Both the position numbers and the translations under genes were made by a program. This document shows positions 10,807-53,439 of a stretch of 64,000 nucleotides of DNA, piece by piece (position 1 is the first letter of the stretch; every line of letters starts with the position of its first letter). A model generated the notes under the pieces. That model saw only the letters and a program-made list of their open reading frames with translations, was not told the origin of the DNA and ran no database searches. Source of the stretch: Brachypterus glaber (Eukaryota; Arthropoda; Insecta; Coleoptera; Kateretidae); NCBI GenBank assembly GCA_958510825.1, contig OY294045.1, forward strand, positions 5,817,916 to 5,881,915, read 5' to 3'.

Positions 10807-11398
10807 TAATTTGACCTCCTCTACCGATGTAAATTTTTTTAAGATTTTGACATACTTTTTAAATACAACGTAAAATTTTTGACCACCCCCTCCCCCTCCA
10901 TAAATATCATCGAGGTTTGCCGATTTTTATTAAACTTTGATGTTACTGATTAATCAGTACTTTTTCATTAAAATCCTTTCTAGTCCTCTAAATATTTTGT
11001 GTATCATCAGATGCGTTCTAAAGTGGGTTTTGTATTTTTTAGGGTCCACCTTAGTGGTCCCCTAGTTTTAATAGTAAAATCTACTTGAAATCCCTTGTAA
11101 AAAAGCACTTATAATTATTTTTAAAGCTAAGAAATATAACAAAGGTAGGTACATACGCTTTCAAAATTGAAATATTGATCCATTTTTTCCACATAACACT
11201 ATCTAACTGAACCAAACAATAAATATATCAATAAGATAAGATATCATAGATAAATATGGCTATCAATTACCGAAAAGTGGGGTTTGTGTGTTAATTACCG
11301 TAAAGTGGGGTAAGCGTATTAATTTGAAACTATTAAAATATGGTATATGAGATTAAATTAGGAAATAGAATCTTTAAATTTTATTTTAGTAGGATTTA

Positions 11399-11793
11399 AT
11401 GGCGATTTCTCCCGTTAGATTAGACAGGGACAAAAGTTCTACCCAAAAAGGATAGAAGACATACATACACTCCCACTTCCACCCAACCAAACAAATTCTG
11501 TATTTGTTCTTTGTTGAACAAATACAATATTTACTTGGCCGGGCGAAAAGTGTAACTATTTTATTTTTATTAAAGAAATTACTGGCGCCATCTAAATTTT
11601 AGTAGAATTATCTTATTCTACAGATTCACATTAGCTCAGTGCTACACTTTCCGGCCAACCAAATAAATACTGTATTTGTTGTATGAAAAACAAATACAGT
11701 ATTTATTTGGTTGGCTGGAAAGTGTAGCACAAATGAGATAGAGATAGGGTAGACGTCTTTTGTTTCATAAGTCTAGTTGTAGAGAGCTCCATT
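11399..11793 (+). mobile_element. Family D element, copy 1
   Basis: Left end AATGGCGATTTCTCCCGTTA, right end TTGTAGAGAGCTCCATT. The interior contains two nested palindromes made of ACAAATACAGTATTTATTTG and a GGCGCCATCTAAATTTTAG block. About 395 bp, non-coding. Confidence 0.85.
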
Positions 11794-11845
11794 GGTGAAT
11801 TGTTTCTCGCTACTAACTTGAATATCGCCAACATTGTATAATAAT

Positions 11846-21402: not shown

Positions 21403-22106
21403 TAATAATAACTGATAATTTTCGTCTCAAAATTTGGTTGGTAAGAGCAAAAAATGTGACTCAATAAAATAGATTTATTTATTTTTTTAACATAAATTCA
21501 TTTAACTTTTTTCGAGACTTTTTTACAGTGTTTAAAAGCGAGGTGAGGTAGACAGTTATCCTGTCAGACCGTCTAGTGCAAAATTTCTTCTTTAACCTTT
21601 AGGTAACTTCAGTGCAGCCACAGTTAATTAAAAACCAATACGTTTTATTTAAATGAAGTAAGTCTTCTAACAACAAATCATCATTCATATTAATAACTAT
21701 TTAAATAGCCCTAAAAACCCGTTCTTCTTTTGACTAGAAGAATATTTCTTAGTTAAAATGATGAGGTAACATATAATTAAATATGGAAAATTCTCATTGG
21801 GAATAATGAAAAACTACGCTTAAAAAAAGGTATCAATTACTGAAGATACTTCTGTACAGTAAGTATAATTTAGATAATTATCAGTTTCGGCTTTTAGGAT
21901 ACAAATTATGATTTATGTAGCCCAAATACGCGACTGATCCACCTTAAAATATGGTATACATACAAAAAGTTAAAGTTAAATTTTTAGCAATGTTTTTTGA
22001 GAAAGTAAGGTTATAAAAACTAAATTAAATTGTTTGATATTTACAAATTTAAAAAATCTATATAAAACATTTTACTATTCCTTAAAACGACTTTTGTTTG
22101 ATTAAA

Positions 22107-22191
22107 CGCAGTCGTCCCTCCGAAGTGACTGATCGATTTCGTGCTTTTTAGCACTCTTCAGAGCCACATATCGGTAGTAGGGACAACTACG
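22107..22191 (-). ncRNA. Hammerhead ribozyme in the inverted partial unit
   Basis: Reverse complement of the same motif (TCTTCAG core, GTGCTTTTTAGCAC stem II, TTTC). It could act only in minus-strand transcripts. In plus-strand RNA it would pair with the direct copies and lock part of the transcript in a long duplex. Confidence 0.88.
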
Positions 22192-22626
22192 AAAATCAAA
22201 TCCTTTCCATATATCTCTATATAGAGTTTAAAAATCGTTGTAAGGAAAAGCAAAAACAGCTAGCGACATCTACTGCTAAAAGCAGAGACTGGATAATAGT
22301 AAATAGTAAAATGTTTTATATAGATTTTTTAAATTTGTAAATATCAAACAATTTAATTTAGTTTATTAATTCAGATACCACTGTAAAAGGTGACCTCCTA
22401 GCGTTTAGGATTCAATTGGCGGCAATGTCCACCGTGGCATTGATTAATCTGCCCCCTATCGACAGCGTGCAATAGGTTCTTGAAACCAATAACTGCTTCC
22501 TTTTTTGGACTGTCGATAGGTTTATCCAGTCTCTGCTTTTAGCAGTAGATGTCGCTAGCTGTTTTTGCTTTTCCTTACAACGATTTTTAAACTCTATATA
22601 GAGATATATGGAAAGGATTTGATTTT

Positions 22627-22711
22627 CGTAGTTGTCCCTACTACCGATATGTGGCTCTGAAGAGTGCTAAAAAGCACGAAATCGATCAGTCACTTCGGAG
22701 GGACGACTGCG
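22627..22711 (+). ncRNA. Hammerhead ribozyme, unit 1
   Basis: All core elements are present: CTGAAGA (the CUGANGA box), stem II GTGC/GCAC closed by TAAAAA, then GAAA, then cleavage triplet ATC with the cut after C22687. Stem I has an inner 6 bp (GTGGCT with AGTCAC, one G-U), an internal loop, and an outer 13-bp helix (22627-22639 with 22699-22711, two G-U pairs). Stem III is only the self-complementary ATCGAT with no loop, the type that works best as a dimer. Type I hammerhead. Confidence 0.9.
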
Positions 22712-23063
22712 TTTAATCAAACAAAAGTCGTTTTAAGGAATAGTAAAATGTTTTATATAGATTTTTTAAATTTGTAAATATCAAACAATTTAATTTAGTT
22801 TATTAATTCAGATACCACTGTAAAAGGTGACCTCCTAGCGTTTAGGATTCAATTGGCGGCAATGTCCACCGTGGCATTGATTAATCTGCCCCCTATCGAC
22901 AGCGTGCAATAGGTTCTTGAAACCAATAACTGCTTCCTTTTTTGGACTGTCGATAGGTTTATCCAGTCTCTGCTTTTAGCAGTAGATGTCGCTAGCTGTT
23001 TTTGCTTTTCCTTACAACGATTTTTAAACTCTATATAGAGATATATGGAAAGGATTTGATTTT

Positions 23064-23148
23064 CGTAGTTGTCCCTACTACCGATATGTGGCTCTGAAGA
23101 GTGCTAAAAAGCACGAAATCGATCAGTCACTTCGGAGGGACGACTGCG
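23064..23148 (+). ncRNA. Hammerhead ribozyme, unit 2
   Basis: Same 85 bases as unit 1 shifted by 437; predicted cleavage after C23124. Cutting here and in unit 1 would release a 437-nt linear RNA with ends suited to circularisation. Confidence 0.9.
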
Positions 23149-23500
23149 TTTAATCAAACAAAAGTCGTTTTAAGGAATAGTAAAATGTTTTATATAGATT
23201 TTTTAAATTTGTAAATATCAAACAATTTAATTTAGTTTATTAATTCAGATACCACTGTAAAAGGTGACCTCCTAGCGTTTAGGATTCAATTGGCGGCAAT
23301 GTCCACCGTGGCATTGATTAATCTGCCCCCTATCGACAGCGTGCAATAGGTTCTTGAAACCAATAACTGCTTCCTTTTTTGGACTGTCGATAGGTTTATC
23401 CAGTCTCTGCTTTTAGCAGTAGATGTCGCTAGCTGTTTTTGCTTTTCCTTACAACGATTTTTAAACTCTATATAGAGATATATGGAAAGGATTTGATTTT

Positions 23501-23585
23501 CGTAGTTGTCCCTACTACCGATATGTGGCTCTGAAGAGTGCTAAAAAGCACGAAATCGATCAGTCACTTCGGAGGGACGACTGCG
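23501..23585 (+). ncRNA. Hammerhead ribozyme, unit 3
   Basis: Same 85 bases shifted by 874 from unit 1; predicted cleavage after C23561. Core CTGAAGA, GAAA and ATC are unchanged. Confidence 0.9.
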
Positions 23586-23937
23586 TTTAATCAAACAAAA
23601 GTCGTTTTAAGGAATAGTAAAATGTTTTATATAGATTTTTTAAATTTGTAAATATCAAACAATTTAATTTAGTTTATTAATTCAGATACCACTGTAAAAG
23701 GTGACCTCCTAGCGTTTAGGATTCAATTGGCGGCAATGTCCACCGTGGCATTGATTAATCTGCCCCCTATCGACAGCGTGCAATAGGTTCTTGAAACCAA
23801 TAACTGCTTCCTTTTTTGGACTGTCGATAGGTTTATCCAGTCTCTGCTTTTAGCAGTAGATGTCGCTAGCTGTTTTTGCTTTTCCTTACAACGATTTTTA
23901 AACTCTATATAGAGATATATGGAAAGGATTTGATTTT

Positions 23938-24022
23938 CGTAGTTGTCCCTACTACCGATATGTGGCTCTGAAGAGTGCTAAAAAGCACGAAATCGATCAG
24001 TCACTTCGGAGGGACGACTGCG
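23938..24022 (+). ncRNA. Hammerhead ribozyme, unit 4
   Basis: Last direct copy; predicted cleavage after C23998. The element ends 48 bases past this ribozyme, at the right 14-bp target duplication. Confidence 0.9.
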
Positions 24023-24398
24023 TTTAATCAAACAAAAGTCGTTTTAAGGAATAGTAAAATGTTTTATATAGAAAGTAAGGTTATGTTGCGTATCTTTGAC
24101 ACGCACTGTAATGAACGTTTAATGGGAGTCAGCCAATTTGCGAGGGCAGAAAAACAATCTTATATATTTATTCGAGCTTTCGGTTTTTATTTAAAACCTT
24201 CATCAGGAAACTGAAAATATATTTGACAATAACATACAATGAAAAGTTATTAAGAACTTAGCAAAATGTTAAGCTATAAAAGAAACTTGACGCATTTTGG
24301 AACAAACGTACAACACATTAAAAATTGTGAAACATTTCAATTACTTGAAAATTATAAATAATTTAAAAGAAGAACATCACCAATATTCTCTCTCTCAA

Positions 24399-35337: not shown

Positions 35338-35750
35338 AATGGCGATTTCTCCGTTAGATTAGACAGGGACGAAAGTTCTACCCAAAAAGGATAGAAGACA
35401 TACATACACTCCCACTTCTACCCAACCAAACAAATTCTGTATTTGTTCTTTGTTGAACAAATACAATATTTACTTGGCCGGGCGAAAAGTGTAACTATAT
35501 TATTTTTATTAAAGAAATTAGTGGCGCCATCTAAATTTTAGTAGAATTATCTTATTCTACAGATTCACATTAGCTATGTTCGTTCGTGCCGTCTAGTGCT
35601 ACACTTTCCGGCCAACCAAATAAATACTGTATTTGTTGTATGAAAAACAAATACAGTATTTATTTGGTTGGCTGGAAAGTGTAGCACAAATGAGATAGAG
35701 ATAGGGTAGACGTCTTTTGTTTCATAATTCTAGTTGTAGAGAGCTCTATT
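35338..35750 (+). mobile_element. Family D element, copy 2
   Basis: Near-identical layout to copy 1, with GCTATGTTCGTTCGTGCCG present between the two palindromes. Left end has one C fewer in the CCCG run. Non-coding. Confidence 0.85.
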
Positions 35751-36093
35751 TCATGTTTCTAGGTCGAGGCGTTTAAAAGTTAGCAAAACCTGACCTTAAA
35801 CTGTCATTTTGACAGGTGCGTAACAATTATAAACTTATAAAATGTTTATTGGTACAAGTTTTTAACAACCATAACCAAGAACCGGTTTTCGGTTAACCGG
35901 TTGCGGAAATTACATCAGACCGGTTTTGGGTTACGCCGCGTTACATGGGGGGGGGGGGTCAAAATGACCAAATTTCACGTTACGTAATACTTGAACATTC
36001 CCTAAGAGTACATGTTGAATTGAGAACCACCTCTTTTTGGGAAGTTAGTTAAAAAAAACTTATTTATTGCTCATTTGTAAATGATTCAATCTA

Positions 36094-37667: not shown

Positions 37668-38030
37668 ATACTTTATAATTTTAAAGATGAGCTAAGTTTT
37701 TGAAACCCCCACATTAAGGAACGTGTATACACTTTCTTACATTACTGACCCTCTAAGCAAGAAGGTCCTATCTAACGATTTGAGGTTTCCACTTCTTAGC
37801 ATCTTTGCACCTATAGTCCGTCCAATTATGCAAGATAGTAGTTAAAATGGAGCTCTCTACAACTAGAATCATGAAACACAAGACGTCTACCCTATCTCTA
37901 TCTCATTTGTGCTATACTTTTCAGCCAACCAAATAAATACTGTATTTGTTTTCCATACAACAAATACAGTATTTATTTGGTTGGCCGGAAAGTGTAGCAC
38001 TGAGCGGCACAAACGAACATAGCTAATGTG
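37502..38030 (+). repeat. 529-bp tandem segmental duplication, first copy
   Basis: Runs from the centre of the family C palindrome through unique sequence into a truncated family D element (from about 37846). Repeated immediately at 38031-38534. The junction shares AATGTCC with the start of the unit, so short homology may have mediated it. Confidence 0.9.
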
Positions 38031-38534
38031 AATGTCCTTGAATAAAGAGCGCGGATTTTTATTCCAAAACCCGTGCTCTTCATTCAAGGACATTGACTTT
38101 GGTTCAAGAAAATGCCAGCCTTGAAACAAGAGAATATGGCTTAGAACATATCCAAATACACGTGTCCTTGGTTCAAGGAATCCGTTTTTTCTCTGTATAC
38201 TTTATAATTTTAAAGATGAGCTAAGTTTTTGAAACCCCCACATTAAGGAACGTGTATACACTTTCTTACATTACTGACCCTCTAAGCAAGAAGGTCCTAT
38301 CTAACGATTTGCACCTATAGTCCGTCCAATTATGCAAGATAGTAGTTAAAATGGAGCTCTCTACAACTAGAATTATGAAACACAAGACGTCTACCCTATC
38401 TCTATCTCATTTGTGCTATACTTTCCAGCCAACCAAATAAATACTGTATTTGTTTTTCATAAAACAAATACAGTATTTATTTGGTTGGCCGGAAAGTGTA
38501 GCACTGAGCGGCACAAACGAACATAGCTAATGTG
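38031..38534 (+). repeat. 529-bp tandem segmental duplication, second copy (504 bp)
   Basis: Same sequence as 37502-38030 with a few substitutions and one 25-bp deletion next to a repeated TTTG (after 38300). It continues past the duplicated block into the intact remainder of the family D element. Confidence 0.9.
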
Positions 38535-38755
38535 AATCTGTAGAATAAGGTAATTCTACTAAAATTTAGATGGCGCCAGTAATTTCTTTAATAAAAATAA
38601 TACTTTTCGCACGGCCAAGTAAATATTGTATTTGTTCAACAAAGAACAAATACAGAATTTGTTTGGTTGGGTGGAAGTGGGAGTGTATGTATGTGTTCTA
38701 TCCTTTTTTGGTAGAACTTTTGTCCCTGTCTAATCTAACGGGAGAAATCGCTATT
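38350..38755 (-). mobile_element. Family D element, copy 3
   Basis: Full-length inverted copy; its first 185 bp are also present in truncated form at 37846-38030 because of the tandem duplication. The open frame 38570-38803 is a chance frame in it. Confidence 0.85.
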
Positions 38756-46610: not shown

Positions 46611-47224
46611 TTATAATGGATTGTTCATATTTAATCTCTTATTTCTTTCTATACCCCTTACTTCCTTCTCAATTTCAAACCTTCGTAAGTCAGTCCTTTG
46701 CAAGAAATCTTGCCTCTCCAAATACCCATCTTTTCCTTTATTATAAGTCTGTAGTTCTTCATCGATCTTTTCATCCTTTTTGAACTTATCCCAATCTAAT
46801 TTTGTTTTTTCTAAGGTGCTAATTTTTGCCTTTTTACCTAGTTGGCTCAGAACATTGCTTATACCGCCTAGTCCACCCCTGGCTCTGGCTGGAACAGGTT
46901 TACTGTCAGACGATTTGGATGGTTGGTTACTGAGCAGTCGAGCTTCTGCTGAATCGGAAGCTACTTCTTTTTCCACTCTAACTTCTTCACCGGCAAACTC
47001 AAATATTTGGGTAATTTTAACTTTTTCAGGAACAGTTTTTTTGGGTTCTGGTTTAGGAGATTCAGATGGTTTGGATTCTGTTTTTGGTTTGGGACTATTA
47101 ATACTATTTTTACTGTTTTTGGATTTGAAACCTGTGTCTTTCATGAAATCTGCCCATAAGTCTTCTTCTTTCTTCTTTTTCTCTTCTTCTGTTTCTTCTA
47201 CATCTTCTGTCTCTTTTTCTGTGA
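46611..47224 (-). CDS. CFDP1: CFDP1 coding exon 2 with the BCNT-C domain
   Basis: The acceptor is TTTTTTTAG just upstream of 47224. The first two bases complete Val72, then TEKETEDVEETEEEKKKKEE leads into the DLWADFM motif. The TAA stop is at 46613-46611. The longest ATG-initiated frame in this exon starts at internal Met 47144, so a simple ORF finder would miss about 26 genuine residues at its 5' end. Confidence 0.92.
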
Positions 47225-48107
47225 CTAAAAAAACAGACTGTCAATAGTGGAAAACAAAATCGGGAACAGGTATTTTTTGCTTACATTTTTTTTTAATTTT
47301 TTTTTGGGCGGAATGTATGGTAAACATAGTGTTATTTCTACAAAATATAGTCCTGGATGTAGGGATCTATAGGATCTATATTAATCTAGATCTTTACCTA
47401 GATTTAGTGAACTCAGGGCTATAGCGAAGAAGATTACAACTTTTTTAGCCTAAAAATACAACTTTTTTCCTCGAGAAAAAAGTTAATGACTAAAAAAAAG
47501 GTCCTCTCCTCCATAAAATATACAACCTTTGTTTTGGATCAATGAAATATACAACTTTTCAAGATGGGTGTGGGGACGCTGCCCCCATAGCTACAGCCCT
47601 GAGTGAACTACACAATAGTAATCGTTACTATTGTGTAGCTTAATATTAAATATTTAGTGTAGCTCAAAGACCAGTAGAAAACAAATCAGAATCTACCGGA
47701 TCCTACTGGTCTCTATTTTTTTTTTTAACAGGGTGCCTACATTCCAGGAATGTATTTTACACTAGTTACCATAGCAAGCGTAGTCTTTTACTAATTTTTA
47801 GTTACTTTTCTCTATATGTAGGGTGTAAACCCATAAAAATCATGCCGTATTAGTTATATTCTTTTATACAACGAATTGTTTAAGCGTACTAACCTGCTTC
47901 TTCTTCTATCTTTTTCTGTTTACTCTTCTTTTTACTCAATTTCTTCTTGCGTTTTTGTCCTCTCTTGCCCAAATCTTCTGTATCAGATAAGTGATCCTCT
48001 GGATCACCATCTGAATCAACTTCTGATACTACTTCTTGCGGTTTTCCTTCTGGGCAATAATCTTCGTCACTTGTATCACTGTCTTCCGGTAACTCGGCGA
48101 GATTCAT
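46611..48107 (-). CDS. CFDP1: CFDP1 / Bucentaur (BCNT) family protein, two coding exons
   Basis: Orthologue of craniofacial development protein 1 (Yeti in Drosophila, Swc5 in yeast), a nuclear subunit of SWR1/SRCAP/Tip60-type complexes that handle H2A.Z-H2B (family knowledge). Joining exon 48107-47894 to 47224-46611 gives 275 residues, close to the roughly 300 of vertebrate members. Visible parts in order: an acidic start with the conserved DSDTSDEDYCPEG block (about residues 8-20); a Lys-rich nuclear-localisation stretch (about 48-71); the ALWEDFLK-like block EEDLWADFMKDTG; the block ITQIFEFAGEEV (about 144-155); and the C-terminal BCNT-C domain (about 190-268) with KLDWDKFKKDE, GYLERQDFL and RRFEIEKE. 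The splice junction keeps the frame (G joined to TC gives Val72), with a GT donor and an AG acceptor after a T run. It faces TMEM170 head to head. I see no damage. Confidence 0.95.
47225..47893 (-). other. CFDP1 intron with repeat debris and a perfect hairpin
   Basis: A 669-bp intron. It contains a repeat (about 47430-47600) rich in CAACTTTT words that resembles 25683-25890 and 39940-40240. It is bracketed by inverted copies of a CAGGGCT(A)TAGC-like sequence. It also holds a perfect 14-bp hairpin at 47608-47621 / 47625-47638 and a short GACCAGTAG/CTACTGGTC pair. No coding signal seen. Confidence 0.7.
47894..48107 (-). CDS. CFDP1: CFDP1 coding exon 1
   Basis: Starts at ATG 48107 and encodes residues 1-71 plus one base of codon 72. 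It ends at 47894, followed by the donor GTTAGT. The N-terminal acidic Ser/Asp-rich segment and the following Lys-rich run are both typical of the family. The whole exon lies in one open frame. Confidence 0.93.
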
Positions 48108-48775: not shown

Positions 48776-51700
48776 GTAAGAATGTTTTAATATCATGAAG
48801 CTGAAGTTTGCAACGTTTTTTTGCATCAAAAATTCAAATAGTATATTAAAGCACTTATTCTGTAACGTGTTTTTAGCGCACTAGTACTTTAGAAAACTCG
48901 CCGCAAGCGGCTTGTTTTCTAAACTTGTACTCGTGCACTAAAAACGTATGTTATGAAACTAGTACTTTAATATACTATTTGAATTTTCATTGCAAAAAAA
49001 CATTGCAAACTTCAGCTTCATTTAATATCAACTTTCCCAACAAGCATTTTGTAGTGTTCTGCCCTCCTTAGTTAAAACGTCCTAACTAACATTTTTGTCA
49101 TTTTTGTATTAACTGCATATATCGATGGTTCTATGCCATATTTATCTATTCTTCAGGGTTCACCCCAGTCAGGGATGTCAGGGAAATTAAAACTGAAACC
49201 TGGAAGTCAGAATTTGGCCACTTATTCGAAAAATTTAGAGCAAGTAGCAATGTTTGTAACTAAGGATGGCAGCGTTGTTAACACTTTAACACCTAAAGTT
49301 CTATAAAGGTGTTATAATAGTAACAAATAGCTTAATACCTCTATAATAGAGTATAATACAGGTGATAATACAGGTTATATAAAAGTAACACAGTTATCTT
49401 AGATAATGAAATTCTTCAAATTAGTGTTATAAAGCTCATATAAGGGTGTAGTAAAGGTTTCCATCACCATGCGCTGGTTTATAAATGTTTATAAAGAAGT
49501 TGAAGGACTTTGGTTGATGGCCATTTGTAAGACTGTTTAGTAGTACAATAAATGACACTTATTATTATTATTATTATTATTATCTATTATAAGAAGCTCT
49601 TTTTAGGTTTTGGCAACCTTTATAGAACTTAATTGTTAGTTTGGTTAATTACATTTTTTCATTTCAAGGAAAGGTGAATATCTCCGGGTTGGAGTACAAG
49701 GGTTGGATATCAAAAATATGTTTTTAGAGAAAACACCAATAAGCTATAATTTTTAAGTACTCCCAAAAAAAATTACAGGGTTAAAAACTTAAAATTTAAA
49801 TTTAGAATGTATATGATAGCAGAATATGAATTGTATATTTTAAAAATTGGACATCTGACCCTTGTACTTCAAGCCAGAGCTATATAAAACCATTAAACCA
49901 TAAAATATAGCCAGATGCAACTAAAAGCTCCACAGCAAATAGAAATAATTCTTTTTTTTTTGTAAAGCAGTGTTATTATTAATTTGTTGTGTGTATTTTG
50001 ACGTCACGACTTGGTAAAATACGTGATTGACGTGGTTCTGTATAAGATTACGCGACTATTCCGTAATGGGTTTCCACTGCTTTGTACAGTAATTCCGCGA
50101 AGAAGTAATAATTATTATTTGATTATAATCAAATATTTAAAAAAAAAAACGAGTAATTTTTTTTTTTTGAAGACCTAGAAATTTATTTAGGAATAAAAAA
50201 TAAAATAGATATGCGTCTAAATAACCAAAGGATTCAACCTGCATTTCCAAAATAAAACTGAAATACTAAGTCAAAAAAAACTTGTAAAATACCCAAAATT
50301 GAAAGTTTAGGTCTCCTAAACGACCCCCTAATGAACCACGATCAACTGCAATCTTTTTTTGTAGTATACTGCCCTACAGAAAAATAATTTAACGTATAGG
50401 CAGTTTTCCCAAATTCAGTTGGAAATTTGGCGAAAACCCTCTGGTAACGTACGTAACATTTTTTGGTAACGCACGTAACAACCATAATAGATTCTGAAAA
50501 TCATATTTATTTATTTTTTTTATTTATTTATTTATTTATTTATTTATTAACGGATATCCTTTTTTTACAAACATTTAAGTACAATAGAATAAAACATGTT
50601 ATATGGTAACTAGAATATTTAACTGGATACTTATAATTAATATAATAATTTTTAACGTATAATTAATATAATACTCTTTTAATGTTATTTTTAAATTTAT
50701 TTAAACTTAAATAAAAAATATCACAGTCATTGATTGTGTTTATTAAATTGGTCATTCTACATAAAGGAGAGTGCATTCCATAGTTTGTTCGGTGAAATGG
50801 AACAAAAAATAAATTATTAAACCTTAAGTTTGCTAATGGAACACAGATAGAAAATTGTGAAAGAATTGGTGGACATTTTATTATGAAGTGAAAAACTTTG
50901 TAAATAAACATAATATCGTAGTATGAACGACGTTTCTCCAATAAAGGTAAAGTAAAATAAGTTAACAACTCGTTAATGTTGCTATTTGCATAGTCAATGT
51001 TATTTTTGAAACACAGTAATCTAATAAATTTTTTTTGAATATTTTCTAAACGTAATATATGGGTTGTATAACTTGGCGACCAAATCAATGACCCGTATTC
51101 TAGGCCTGACCGAACAAAACTAGTGTATAAAACAATTAGACATCGTGTATCAGTAAACGTAGTAGTATATCGTTTAATAAACCCTAAATTTTTATTTGCC
51201 TTAGTAACTATCTTGTCAATATGATCAGTAAAATTTAATTTGGTATCAAGGTGAACACCTAAATCTTTAAAAACTTCAACTCTATTTATTATACCATATG
51301 CTTATTAGAAAGTGAATCCTTCACAAATTAAGCAAACATAAATAAAAAATAAAATCAGATTAGCATATTTTCATTATCATTTACTTAATTGCATAAGTGC
51401 ACTTTTAAATTTTGTAACATGCGAAGCGCGCACATAAGCTGCGTTATTTTTATTGCCCAATGGTGATTTCTCCCGTTAGATTAGACAGGGACAAAAGTTC
51501 TACCCAAAAAGGATAGGAGACATACATACACTCCCACTTCCACCCAACCAATCAAATTCTGTATTTGTTCTTTGTTGAACAAATACAATATTTTATTGGC
51601 CGGGCGAAAAGTGTAACTATATTATTTTTATAAAAGAAATTACTGGCGCCATCTAAATTTTAGTAGAATTATCTTATTGTACAGATTCACATTAGCTATG

Positions 51701-53439
51701 TTCTTTCGAGCGGCTCACTGCTACACTTTCCGGCCAACCAAATAAATACTGTATTTGTTGTATGAAAAACAAATACAGTATTTATTTGGTTGGCTGGAAA
51801 GTGTAGCACAAATGAGATAGAGATAGGGTAGACGTCTTTTGTATCATAATTCTAGTTGTAGAGAGCTCCATTGCATAAGTGCACTTTTAAATTTTGTAAC
51901 AGACGAATCTCGCACATAAGCTGCGTTATTTTTATTGCCCAACTGATTAAATTTATATGTAAACTAAAAGATGTAAAAAAGTGCCTGTAAGGATTTTAAC
52001 CTGAAATATAAATGAATGAACTATCCAGTATTTTTGTGAGGCCTAAATTAAGGTGTACGATTACAAAAAGTCCAAACCATTTAATCAGTGTATTAACTCA
52101 AAGGTAAATTGTATCCGCCATTTTTTAACAAAAAAACATTATATTTTTGTAATCAGTGACTTTAACAACCATTTTCATACAGTATTTTGAAACTTTTAAC
52201 GTATACGACCGTCATATTGGATCCGATATTTTGTTTACAAAAAAACAATCGTTTTGGAATCAGCGACCTCAAAAATACCATATTCATAATTTTAAAGAGA
52301 AATTTGTGAACTTTTGACATTTATGTCTGCCATATTGAATCCACCATTTTCTTAAAAAAAATAATATAATATTTTGGTAATCAGCGACCTCAAAAATCTC
52401 CATATAGAGCTAAATTAAATTTTGGCCAGCTTTTTCGAAAATTCCACCTCTGTGCCTATTTTAAATAAATTATACAAAATCATTTTTTTTTATATTACAT
52501 CGGCACTTAGTGCTACTAAGAGTGCCGATGTATTGAAATCTTCGCCGAAAAGTCAAAATCTTTGACCACGTTTTTTTTCACATTTCTCGACGTTTTAGAC
52601 CATTCTGAGTCGAAATCAGTAAAAAAAAAATTGCGTCCGTCTGTCTGTCTGTCTGGGTGTAAACTCTCTAACTCCATTTCTACATGAGATATCGACTTGT
52701 GGTTTTTTGCATATTGTTTCTTATCGTATTCCGTAGAGCTGATTAGATTTTGGGGGTAAACGATTGGGGGTAAGGGGGTAAAAATAGGGTAAAACTCCTA
52801 TTTTTAGCGTTTTTTGTTTATATTGGTCAAAAAATGTTATAAACAAAGTTTTCCTAAAACGCATTGTTATCGAGATATTGGCGTTTAAAGCAGTAAAAGG
52901 TTTTTTTAGCATATATCACATATTTATAACCGGATTTCAAAAAATTATATTTTAAATAAAAGCTCTTTTTAAGCCCTATAAAAAATGTTATATACAGTTT
53001 TTTGCTAGAATATAATGTTTTACAGATACAGAATTTAAAATCAAACAAAACACCTAGTTTGAAATTTGCAAACTAGATGGCTCTAGTTTACAATAGTGCC
53101 GATGTTTTGACAGGGTGCTTGCAACGTTTCATCTAGTTTACTAATTAAATTTTCATAAGATCCTGACTAATCCAATTGTTTTTTTTTTCACAGATAGCTG
53201 GACTAATCGCCTTCCTCACCTTACGAAAACACAAATTTGGCAAGTTCTTTCCAATCGGAATCCTCCTGATGGGGTTCATCACCCCCGCAGTTACGGGTAT
53301 AGTGAGCAGCGCAGCTATAGCTTTCGTCTACAGGGCGTCCAGTTTGCCGATGAACCCCCTGTACGCCCTTTTTTGGGGCTGTGGACAGACGTTTTTGTCG
53401 GCTTCTATGGGTTTTACTCGTATTTTGGCAACTTTGTAA
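48641..53439 (+). CDS. TMEM170A: Transmembrane protein 170 (TMEM170A/B family), two coding exons
   Basis: Small membrane protein of the ER and nuclear envelope; in human cells TMEM170A affects ER sheet/tubule balance and nuclear pore formation (family knowledge). Exons 48641-48775 and 53194-53439 join in phase 0 to give 126 residues. Three hydrophobic spans are visible: about 28-54 (WYHVFLWALFSSVLVHT onward), 64-91 (FPIGILLMGFITPAVTG onward) and 98-126. Family hallmarks are the MWYxVFLWAL block, the LRKHKFGKF basic loop, ILLMG, the SSAAIAFVYRA block, GQTF and the C-terminal end RILATL. The donor is GTAAGA and the acceptor is a T-run followed by CACAG. The ATG at 48641 is chosen because the upstream ATG (48571) stops after 14 codons. 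I cannot separate the A from the B paralogue; insects usually have one gene. Confidence 0.93.
48795..49021. mobile_element. Foldback MITE in TMEM170 intron 1
   Basis: A 227-bp element with about 60-bp inverted ends; each starts ATGAAGCTGAAGTTTGCAA. The centre carries CGCAAGCGGC and words such as ACTAGTACTTTAATATACT that are shared with the terminal part of repeat A. It begins 19 bp after the exon 1 donor. Confidence 0.75.
49257..49583 (+). mobile_element. Possible 3' end of a non-LTR element with (TTA)n tail
   Basis: The block ends in an AATAAATGACAC-like sequence followed by a clean TTA microsatellite (about 49560-49583), a common 3' terminus of insect LINEs. No reverse-transcriptase frame remains, so only the tail supports the call. 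Confidence 0.3.
49584..50502 (+). other. TMEM170 intron, unannotated part
   Basis: AT-rich intron without recognised repeat. Direct words GGTAACG(T/C)ACGTAAC occur at about 50442 and 50465. Confidence 0.45.
50503..51300 (-). mobile_element. 5'-truncated jockey/CR1-like LINE, C-terminal reverse transcriptase remnant
   Basis: Reading minus from about 51298 to the stop at 50663 gives one uninterrupted frame of about 210 residues typical of the C-terminal end of a jockey-type ORF2: VEVFKDLGVHLDTKL, NKNLGFIKR, then VRSGLEYGSLIWSP and IQKKFIRL. The polymerase active site and endonuclease are absent: a TAA sits directly upstream, and the element starts at about 51300 by 5' truncation. About 110 bp of 3' UTR and an (AAAT)n tail (about 50505-50547 on plus) complete the 3' end. 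It lies antisense inside the TMEM170 intron. The unbroken tail frame suggests a fairly young insertion. Confidence 0.85.
51388..51459 (+). repeat. 72-bp direct repeat, left copy
   Basis: Matches 51870-51941 with a few substitutions. It abuts the left end of the family D element. Too long to be a normal target-site duplication; see the right copy. Confidence 0.75.
51459..51872 (+). mobile_element. Family D element, copy 4
   Basis: About 414 bp, the same structure as 11399-11793 and 35338-35750: a left end with GATTTCTCCCGTTAGATT, a central palindrome pair built from AAATACTGTATTTGTT-like words, and a right end GTTGTAGAGAGCTCCATT. It sits exactly between two 72-bp direct repeats. No coding capacity. 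Confidence 0.85.
51870..51941 (+). repeat. 72-bp direct repeat, right copy
   Basis: Starts ATTGCATAAGTGCACTTT and ends TTTTTATTGCCCA like the left copy; differences are in the middle. It overlaps the last bases of the family D element. Confidence 0.75.
52498..53106. mobile_element. Possible element bounded by GTGCCGATGT motifs
   Basis: Starts with a perfect hairpin (CATCGGCACT / AGTGCCGATG, 52498-52530). It contains a (GTCT)n run at about 52632 followed by CTCTCTAACTCC-type sequence seen in many insect repeats. AGTGCCGATGTTTTGAC recurs at 53095-53111. No coding sequence recognised. Confidence 0.35.
53194..53439 (+). CDS. TMEM170A: TMEM170 coding exon 2
   Basis: Begins IAGLIAFLTL after the acceptor TTTTTTTTTCACAG and runs to the TAA at 53437-53439. 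It encodes residues 46-126, that is, the rest of span 1, spans 2 and 3, and the RILATL end. Codons here are visibly richer in G and C than the surrounding DNA, as expected for constrained coding sequence. The long antisense frame over this exon is a shadow. Confidence 0.93.
   Translation: MAGLIAFLTLRKHKFGKFFPIGILLMGFITPAVTGIVSSAAIAFVYRASSLPMNPLYALFWGCGQTFLSASMGFTRILATL

Follow-up and report, generated by a model that had tools for sequence, protein, structure and literature searches.

A 64,000-nucleotide stretch of the genome of the beetle Brachypterus glaber (contig OY294045.1; hereafter the window) carries an insertion that is very probably a non-autonomous metazoan retrozyme mobilised by the reverse transcriptase (RT) and GIY-YIG endonuclease of a Penelope-like element (PLE). 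The evidence for this reading lies mainly in how copies of the element end. All 33 of the uninterrupted two-armed insertions that were tallied are built head-to-head, with the left arm inverted and the right arm direct, and each has one outer end at a site we call A and the other at a site we call B, both downstream of the predicted hammerhead cut.

Within the window, a single insertion spans positions 22000-24084, flanked by copies of the 15-bp target-site duplication (TSD) AGAAAGTAAGGTTAT, and consists of 4.05 identical direct units of 437 bp and a 280-bp inverted partial copy, with five hammerhead cores in total (Table 1). Four full units occupy 22302-24049 with no differences between them and are followed by 23 bp extra, while the inverted arm is 100% identical to the reverse complement of 22522-22801 and bears the fifth hammerhead on the minus strand. 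Since the 15-bp TSD encloses the whole structure, the array and the inverted arm were most simply inserted as one event. No empty second copy of the joined flanks was found within the window. An earlier reading made from the letters of this DNA (the sequence-only reading) had described four tandem 437-bp units without coding sequence between target duplications, and each of these points held: the units match perfectly by TRF, the duplication is an exact 15 bp, and the longest stop-to-stop frame in the unit, which has a GC content of 36.6%, is 41 aa on the plus strand and 84 aa on the minus strand. Its picture of a tandem retrozyme stands for the direct units and has to be amended for the insertion as a whole, which is not a plain head-to-tail element but head-to-head, with an inverted arm that had been overlooked. 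Elsewhere in the window, 46611-47240 on the minus strand is an exon of BCNT/craniofacial development protein 1, for which the top three named matches are beetle sequences at 66-68% identity and no organism other than a beetle is named before the 46th of the 120 matches listed.

Table 1. Features of the insertion, in window coordinates.
Feature	Position	Strand	Remarks
Left TSD, AGAAAGTAAGGTTAT	22000-22014		exact 15-bp repeat of 24070-24084
Two extra A between left TSD and inverted arm	22015-22016		
Inverted partial unit	22017-22296	-	outer end at site B (offset 114 after cut); inner end at offset 272
Hammerhead in inverted arm	22109-22179	-	Rfam RF02275, 28.4 bits, below gathering; descriptor match
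5-nt filler TAGTA between the two arms	22297-22301		read from sequence
Direct array, 4.05 units of 437 bp	22302-24072	+	TRF 100% match; right end at site A (offset 74 after cut)
Hammerhead ribozyme 1	22639-22709	+	predicted cut after C22687; Rfam below gathering, descriptor match
Hammerhead ribozyme 2	23076-23146	+	Rfam below gathering, descriptor match
Hammerhead ribozyme 3	23513-23583	+	Rfam below gathering, descriptor match
Hammerhead ribozyme 4	23950-24020	+	Rfam below gathering, descriptor match
Right TSD	24070-24084		first 3 bases (AGA) common to TSD and unit

Judged from its sequence elements, the predicted hammerhead is complete and of type I. Every unit contains CTGAAGA, GTGC/GCAC, GAAA and GATC in the order given by the sequence-only reading. 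Stem I has 20 pairs (6 + 14, the latter 4 + 10) and an internal loop UAU/U; the earlier count of six inner pairs including one G-U is correct, whereas the outer part has 14 pairs with one G-U instead of 13 with two. Stem II is GUGC/GCAC with a 6-nt loop UAAAAA, and for helix III only one pair (A-U) is possible, capped by the palindromic tetraloop UCGA. A hammerhead descriptor matched exactly five sites in the window but only a single site when the entire window was shuffled 150 times with dinucleotides preserved, which makes chance a poor explanation. In the covariance-model check that had been proposed for this locus, the Rfam search returned no match at gathering; Hammerhead_HH9 (RF02275) scored below threshold, at 28.4 bits against a cut-off of 52 and with a whole-window E-value of 0.006, which on its own is weak evidence because many sub-threshold matches to miRNA models in the same table have lower E-values. 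A dispersed repeat at 11398-11794, 35351-35751, 37846-38755 and 51459-51873 has sub-threshold matches to several Rfam miRNA models on both strands.

The 83-nt ribozyme folds with a z-score of -5.1 relative to 200 shuffles, and the lowest-energy fold of a 79-nt piece keeps stems I and II with part of the core paired, 3.7 kcal/mol below the open-core form. The predicted fold of a 437-nt circle is 68% paired (z = -6.8 against 60 shuffles). Predicted energies favour a hammerhead dimer only slightly, at -64.5 versus twice -29.9 for the monomers. Self-cleavage and circular RNA are properties that we infer for this element from the family to which it appears to belong.

That family assignment is supported by comparison with the available parts of the published descriptions. 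Metazoan non-LTR retrozymes of Acropora, Mytilus and Ambystoma likewise combine a type I hammerhead with tandem, non-coding, low-GC, self-pairing units and large TSDs (PMC7229834), and 15-bp TSDs are reported for Nematostella repeats (PMC4918200). The beetle element has a complete type I core in a non-coding, low-GC unit that is a few hundred bp long and repeated in tandem; its copies are dispersed and bear large TSDs, and its monomer is predicted to pair strongly with itself. Its unit size, tandem arrangement and 15-bp TSD uphold the class named by the sequence-only reading (PMC7229834, PMC4918200). Its 437 bp fall inside the 150-450 bp range given for metazoan retrozyme repeats and above the 170-400 nt of the RNAs (PMC7229834), and its predicted pairing of 68% compares with values above 70% reported for retrozyme RNA (PMC4918200). 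Helix III, with one pair and a palindromic tetraloop, resembles that of the axolotl HHR_Amex1 type, which reportedly performs poorly by itself and improves when dimeric (PMC7229834). Plant LTR retrozymes are also non-coding retroelements with hammerheads, but they differ in having a type III hammerhead, LTRs, PBS/PPT and 4-bp TSDs (PMC4918200). The pDo500 satellite of Dolichopoda cave crickets also comes from insects, measures 463-505 bp and contains a hammerhead-like motif, although in the available portion of PMC2808323 it is treated as a tandem satellite and not as dispersed insertions with TSDs. Head-to-head insertion with two fixed ends is a feature of the beetle element that is absent from the metazoan retrozyme descriptions in the available sections of PMC7229834, where insects are named only in general terms. 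Among the papers listed for retrozymes or hammerheads in combination with insects, beetles or target-primed reverse transcription, no title or abstract opening mentions a retrozyme from a beetle or one inserted head-to-head.

The ends of the insertions were mapped in a sample drawn from the best-scoring 40 of 900 candidates, a choice that favours young copies; their matches were grouped into 40 arrays, including the window locus. In the 33 tallied loci, end A lies 68-83 nt after the predicted cut (median 72) and end B 111-120 nt after it (median 115), a spacing of 43 nt, and in a predicted hairpin of the retrozyme A pairs with B. From left to right the order is A/B in 18 loci and B/A in 15, the window locus being one of the latter; A/A and B/B do not occur. 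TSD-like repeats of at least 9 bp flank 31 of the 33 (median 12), as compared with 30 of 633 mismatched flank pairs (median 5). Where the two arms meet, they may be up to 11 nt apart or overlap by as much as 10 nt. At one tallied locus (L042) a chance extra match was removed and the end at 117 assigned by hand, and three more (L018, L037 and L038) were counted although an additional, rearranged piece sits where their arms join. When short or interrupted pieces are counted, 38 of the 40 loci have an inverted piece.

Seven of the 40 loci (L052 to L058) were excluded before the tally. Both L052 (113/76) and L058 (117/71) are interrupted, the former by another insert; read across, they give B/A, and in each a TSD can be seen by eye. 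Skipping a later insert in L053 gives 113/115, which goes against the rule as B/B; the left TSD is missing from the right flank of this locus, and the B-like right end may therefore belong elsewhere. The left and right ends lie at 427 and 115 in L054 and at 47 and 69 in L055. The single-arm loci L056 and L057 start at offsets 4 and 5. L052 and L053 lie about 52 kb apart and are identical over their first 1,900 bases, including an insert that by eye begins like a tRNA-type SINE, while their right ends differ.

Of 70 inner ends, 4 fall no more than 5 nt from the cut as against 0.8 expected, a count that may be inflated because the alignment can miss a few bases where it crosses the unit boundary there; as a set, the 70 are spread over the unit (KS p 0.08). 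They do not cluster strongly at the cut, and a ribozyme-cut linear RNA is a conceivable template. As direct arms reach 2,632 nt, or about six units, a circle or an uncut multimer may also have been copied. The impression that arrays start at the hammerhead cut (unit position 387) and end at position 51 was rejected, as the fetched loci show these to be the edges of search pieces.

We compared this layout with that of PLEs in the same genome, where a GIY-YIG search, with 150 of 419 candidates scored, yielded 31 matches. At L074 and L078 the frames have RVT_1 as well as GIY-YIG matches above the cut-offs; L079 matches GIY-YIG above and RVT_1 below its cut-off; L077 has GIY-YIG and a weak RVT_1 (E 0.0048) in two adjacent frames; and L080 has a GIY-YIG match and no RVT_1 match. 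Minimal hammerhead motifs are present at L077, L078 and L080, and the only hammerhead-like motif at L079, found by eye, deviates from the core. As a separate observation, the right flank of the window insertion (24206-24171, minus strand) contains a minimal hammerhead-like motif, formed by CTGATGA, a stem and GAAAGCTC, which resembles the PLE motifs and has no Rfam support.

PLEs of the L077, L078 and L079 types share with the retrozyme a head-to-head insertion with two ends downstream of the hammerhead. For the L077 family we used 16 of the 18 copies in which both arms show; the two omitted are L077's own locus and a cluster of complex structure on contig C4. Fifteen of the 16 end at offsets 64-72 and 94-100 (about 67/97) after their own hammerhead cut, the exception being L082 at 43/96; in one copy, L097, about 200 bp separate the arms. 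A TSD-like repeat of 8-23 bp accompanies all 16, a count made without a mismatched-flank control and including some repeats in simple AT runs. One copy each was read for L078, with inverted arms and ends at about 76/102, and for L079, with inverted arms and ends at about 59/80, some 20 nt apart; in both the longer end was taken from a TSD read by eye. Further arms of the L078 family were found with a query that ended at the shorter end, and several form close opposite-strand pairs.

With an insertion layout equal to that of PLEs in the same genome, including the two-site tail (33 of 33 uninterrupted two-armed insertions among the 40 loci), the element might be better named a non-autonomous PLE derivative, the two classes being one. 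We consider this possible but doubtful. PLEs code for RT and GIY-YIG and their hammerheads are minimal, whereas the retrozyme unit has no frame over 84 aa, its hammerhead having the full stem I with internal loop and the 6-nt loop II, unlike the short motifs beside PLEs. Comparison of the retrozyme with eight PLE loci gave no convincing sequence similarity; a 74% match of the A-B region to L074, L075, L076 and L079 was set aside as AT-rich and not at the tail of that family. Two further differences weigh against the preferred reading, in which PLE proteins move the retrozyme: the A-to-B spacing of 43 nt in the retrozyme is about 20-30 nt in the three PLEs examined, and the A-B hairpin is absent from the predicted folds of both PLEs folded, L077 and L078.

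Target-primed reverse transcription of the LINE type, with the inversion arising by twin priming, is an unlikely source of these insertions. Twin priming is known for L1, whose insertions have TSDs and inversions at one end that recall the structures seen here, and the window itself contains a non-LTR RT fragment (50666-51301, minus strand; a probable C-terminal part, with RVT_1 found in one of five relatives). Yet twin priming is only occasional in L1, while every two-armed copy of the retrozyme tallied carries an inverted piece and all 33 have two fixed internal ends, and PLEs of the same genome share the layout.

A search of the genome (648 Mb in 842 contigs), bearing on the copy number that the sequence-only reading had proposed to check, found 2,618 conserved hammerhead cores with at most three mismatches (1,349 forward and 1,269 reverse), and a reversed control pattern of the core gave no match genome-wide. 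Exact unit patterns in viral_contigs and exact core patterns in genome_contigs gave no matches. The first 100 cores listed all come from contig C1; among them, neighbours no more than 1.5 kb apart are arranged minus-then-plus in 25 cases, plus-then-minus in 1, plus-plus in 8 and minus-minus in 6. A local satellite array that grew by unequal crossing-over and bears a hammerhead-like core by chance would account for identical tandem units, but it is highly improbable given the number of conserved cores and the spread of the matches listed from the best 40 candidates over 11 contigs with their own TSD-like repeats, a dispersal that contradicts it.

The preferred reading, a retrozyme moved by PLE proteins, can be set against what is reported for the Penelope element Poseidon in the available text of PMC11167929. 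There the purified protein cleaves and extends both DNA strands, and reverse transcription begins internally at two adjacent sites, between which the genomic 30-40 bp tails lie; from the published numbers (111-118 into the ORF, cut at 26) we calculate that these sites are about 85-92 nt past the hammerhead cut. Poseidon_Ac thus resembles the retrozyme in having two start sites 3' of the hammerhead, extension of both strands, tail extension and inverted copies. The fit is imperfect in two respects: no difference in start site between the top and bottom strand was seen for Poseidon, whereas the retrozyme strands use different sites, one each, and the hammerhead of Poseidon proved unnecessary for insertion in vitro. 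Later steps of PLE insertion are described as still awaiting validation (PMC11167929). On balance, the retrozyme ends appear to fit the Poseidon mechanism, with two start sites past the hammerhead, one for each strand, and joining of the cDNAs.

Under this model, an array would be transcribed into a multimeric RNA and cut by its hammerheads, probably best as dimers on account of the single A-U pair and palindromic tetraloop of helix III, and the monomers may be ligated to circles. A PLE complex would bind the retrozyme RNA downstream of the hammerhead and nick AT-rich DNA with a stagger of mostly 10-15 bp. Synthesis of cDNA would be primed at A (about 72 nt beyond the cut) by one of the nicked strands and at B (about 115 nt beyond it) by the other; each cDNA would extend for a variable distance, and the two cDNA ends would then be joined, giving a head-to-head insertion between short duplications.

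PLEs have been proposed as a strong candidate for the machinery that moves animal retrozymes, on the grounds of common hammerheads, tandem copies and co-occurrence (PMC7229834). The mapping of insertion ends is evidence independent of that proposal. It is likely that animal retrozymes are passengers of PLEs and that their normal product is head-to-head, one complex priming both strands on the same RNA, at A and at B, with the cDNAs joined. If so, the A/B rule would reflect one RNA-protein assembly that acts on both DNA strands from two different start positions. The fixed ends supply insertion evidence for a link between PLEs and retrozymes, in the form of a signature for which any genome can be screened, and they also suggest how PLE insertion may finish.
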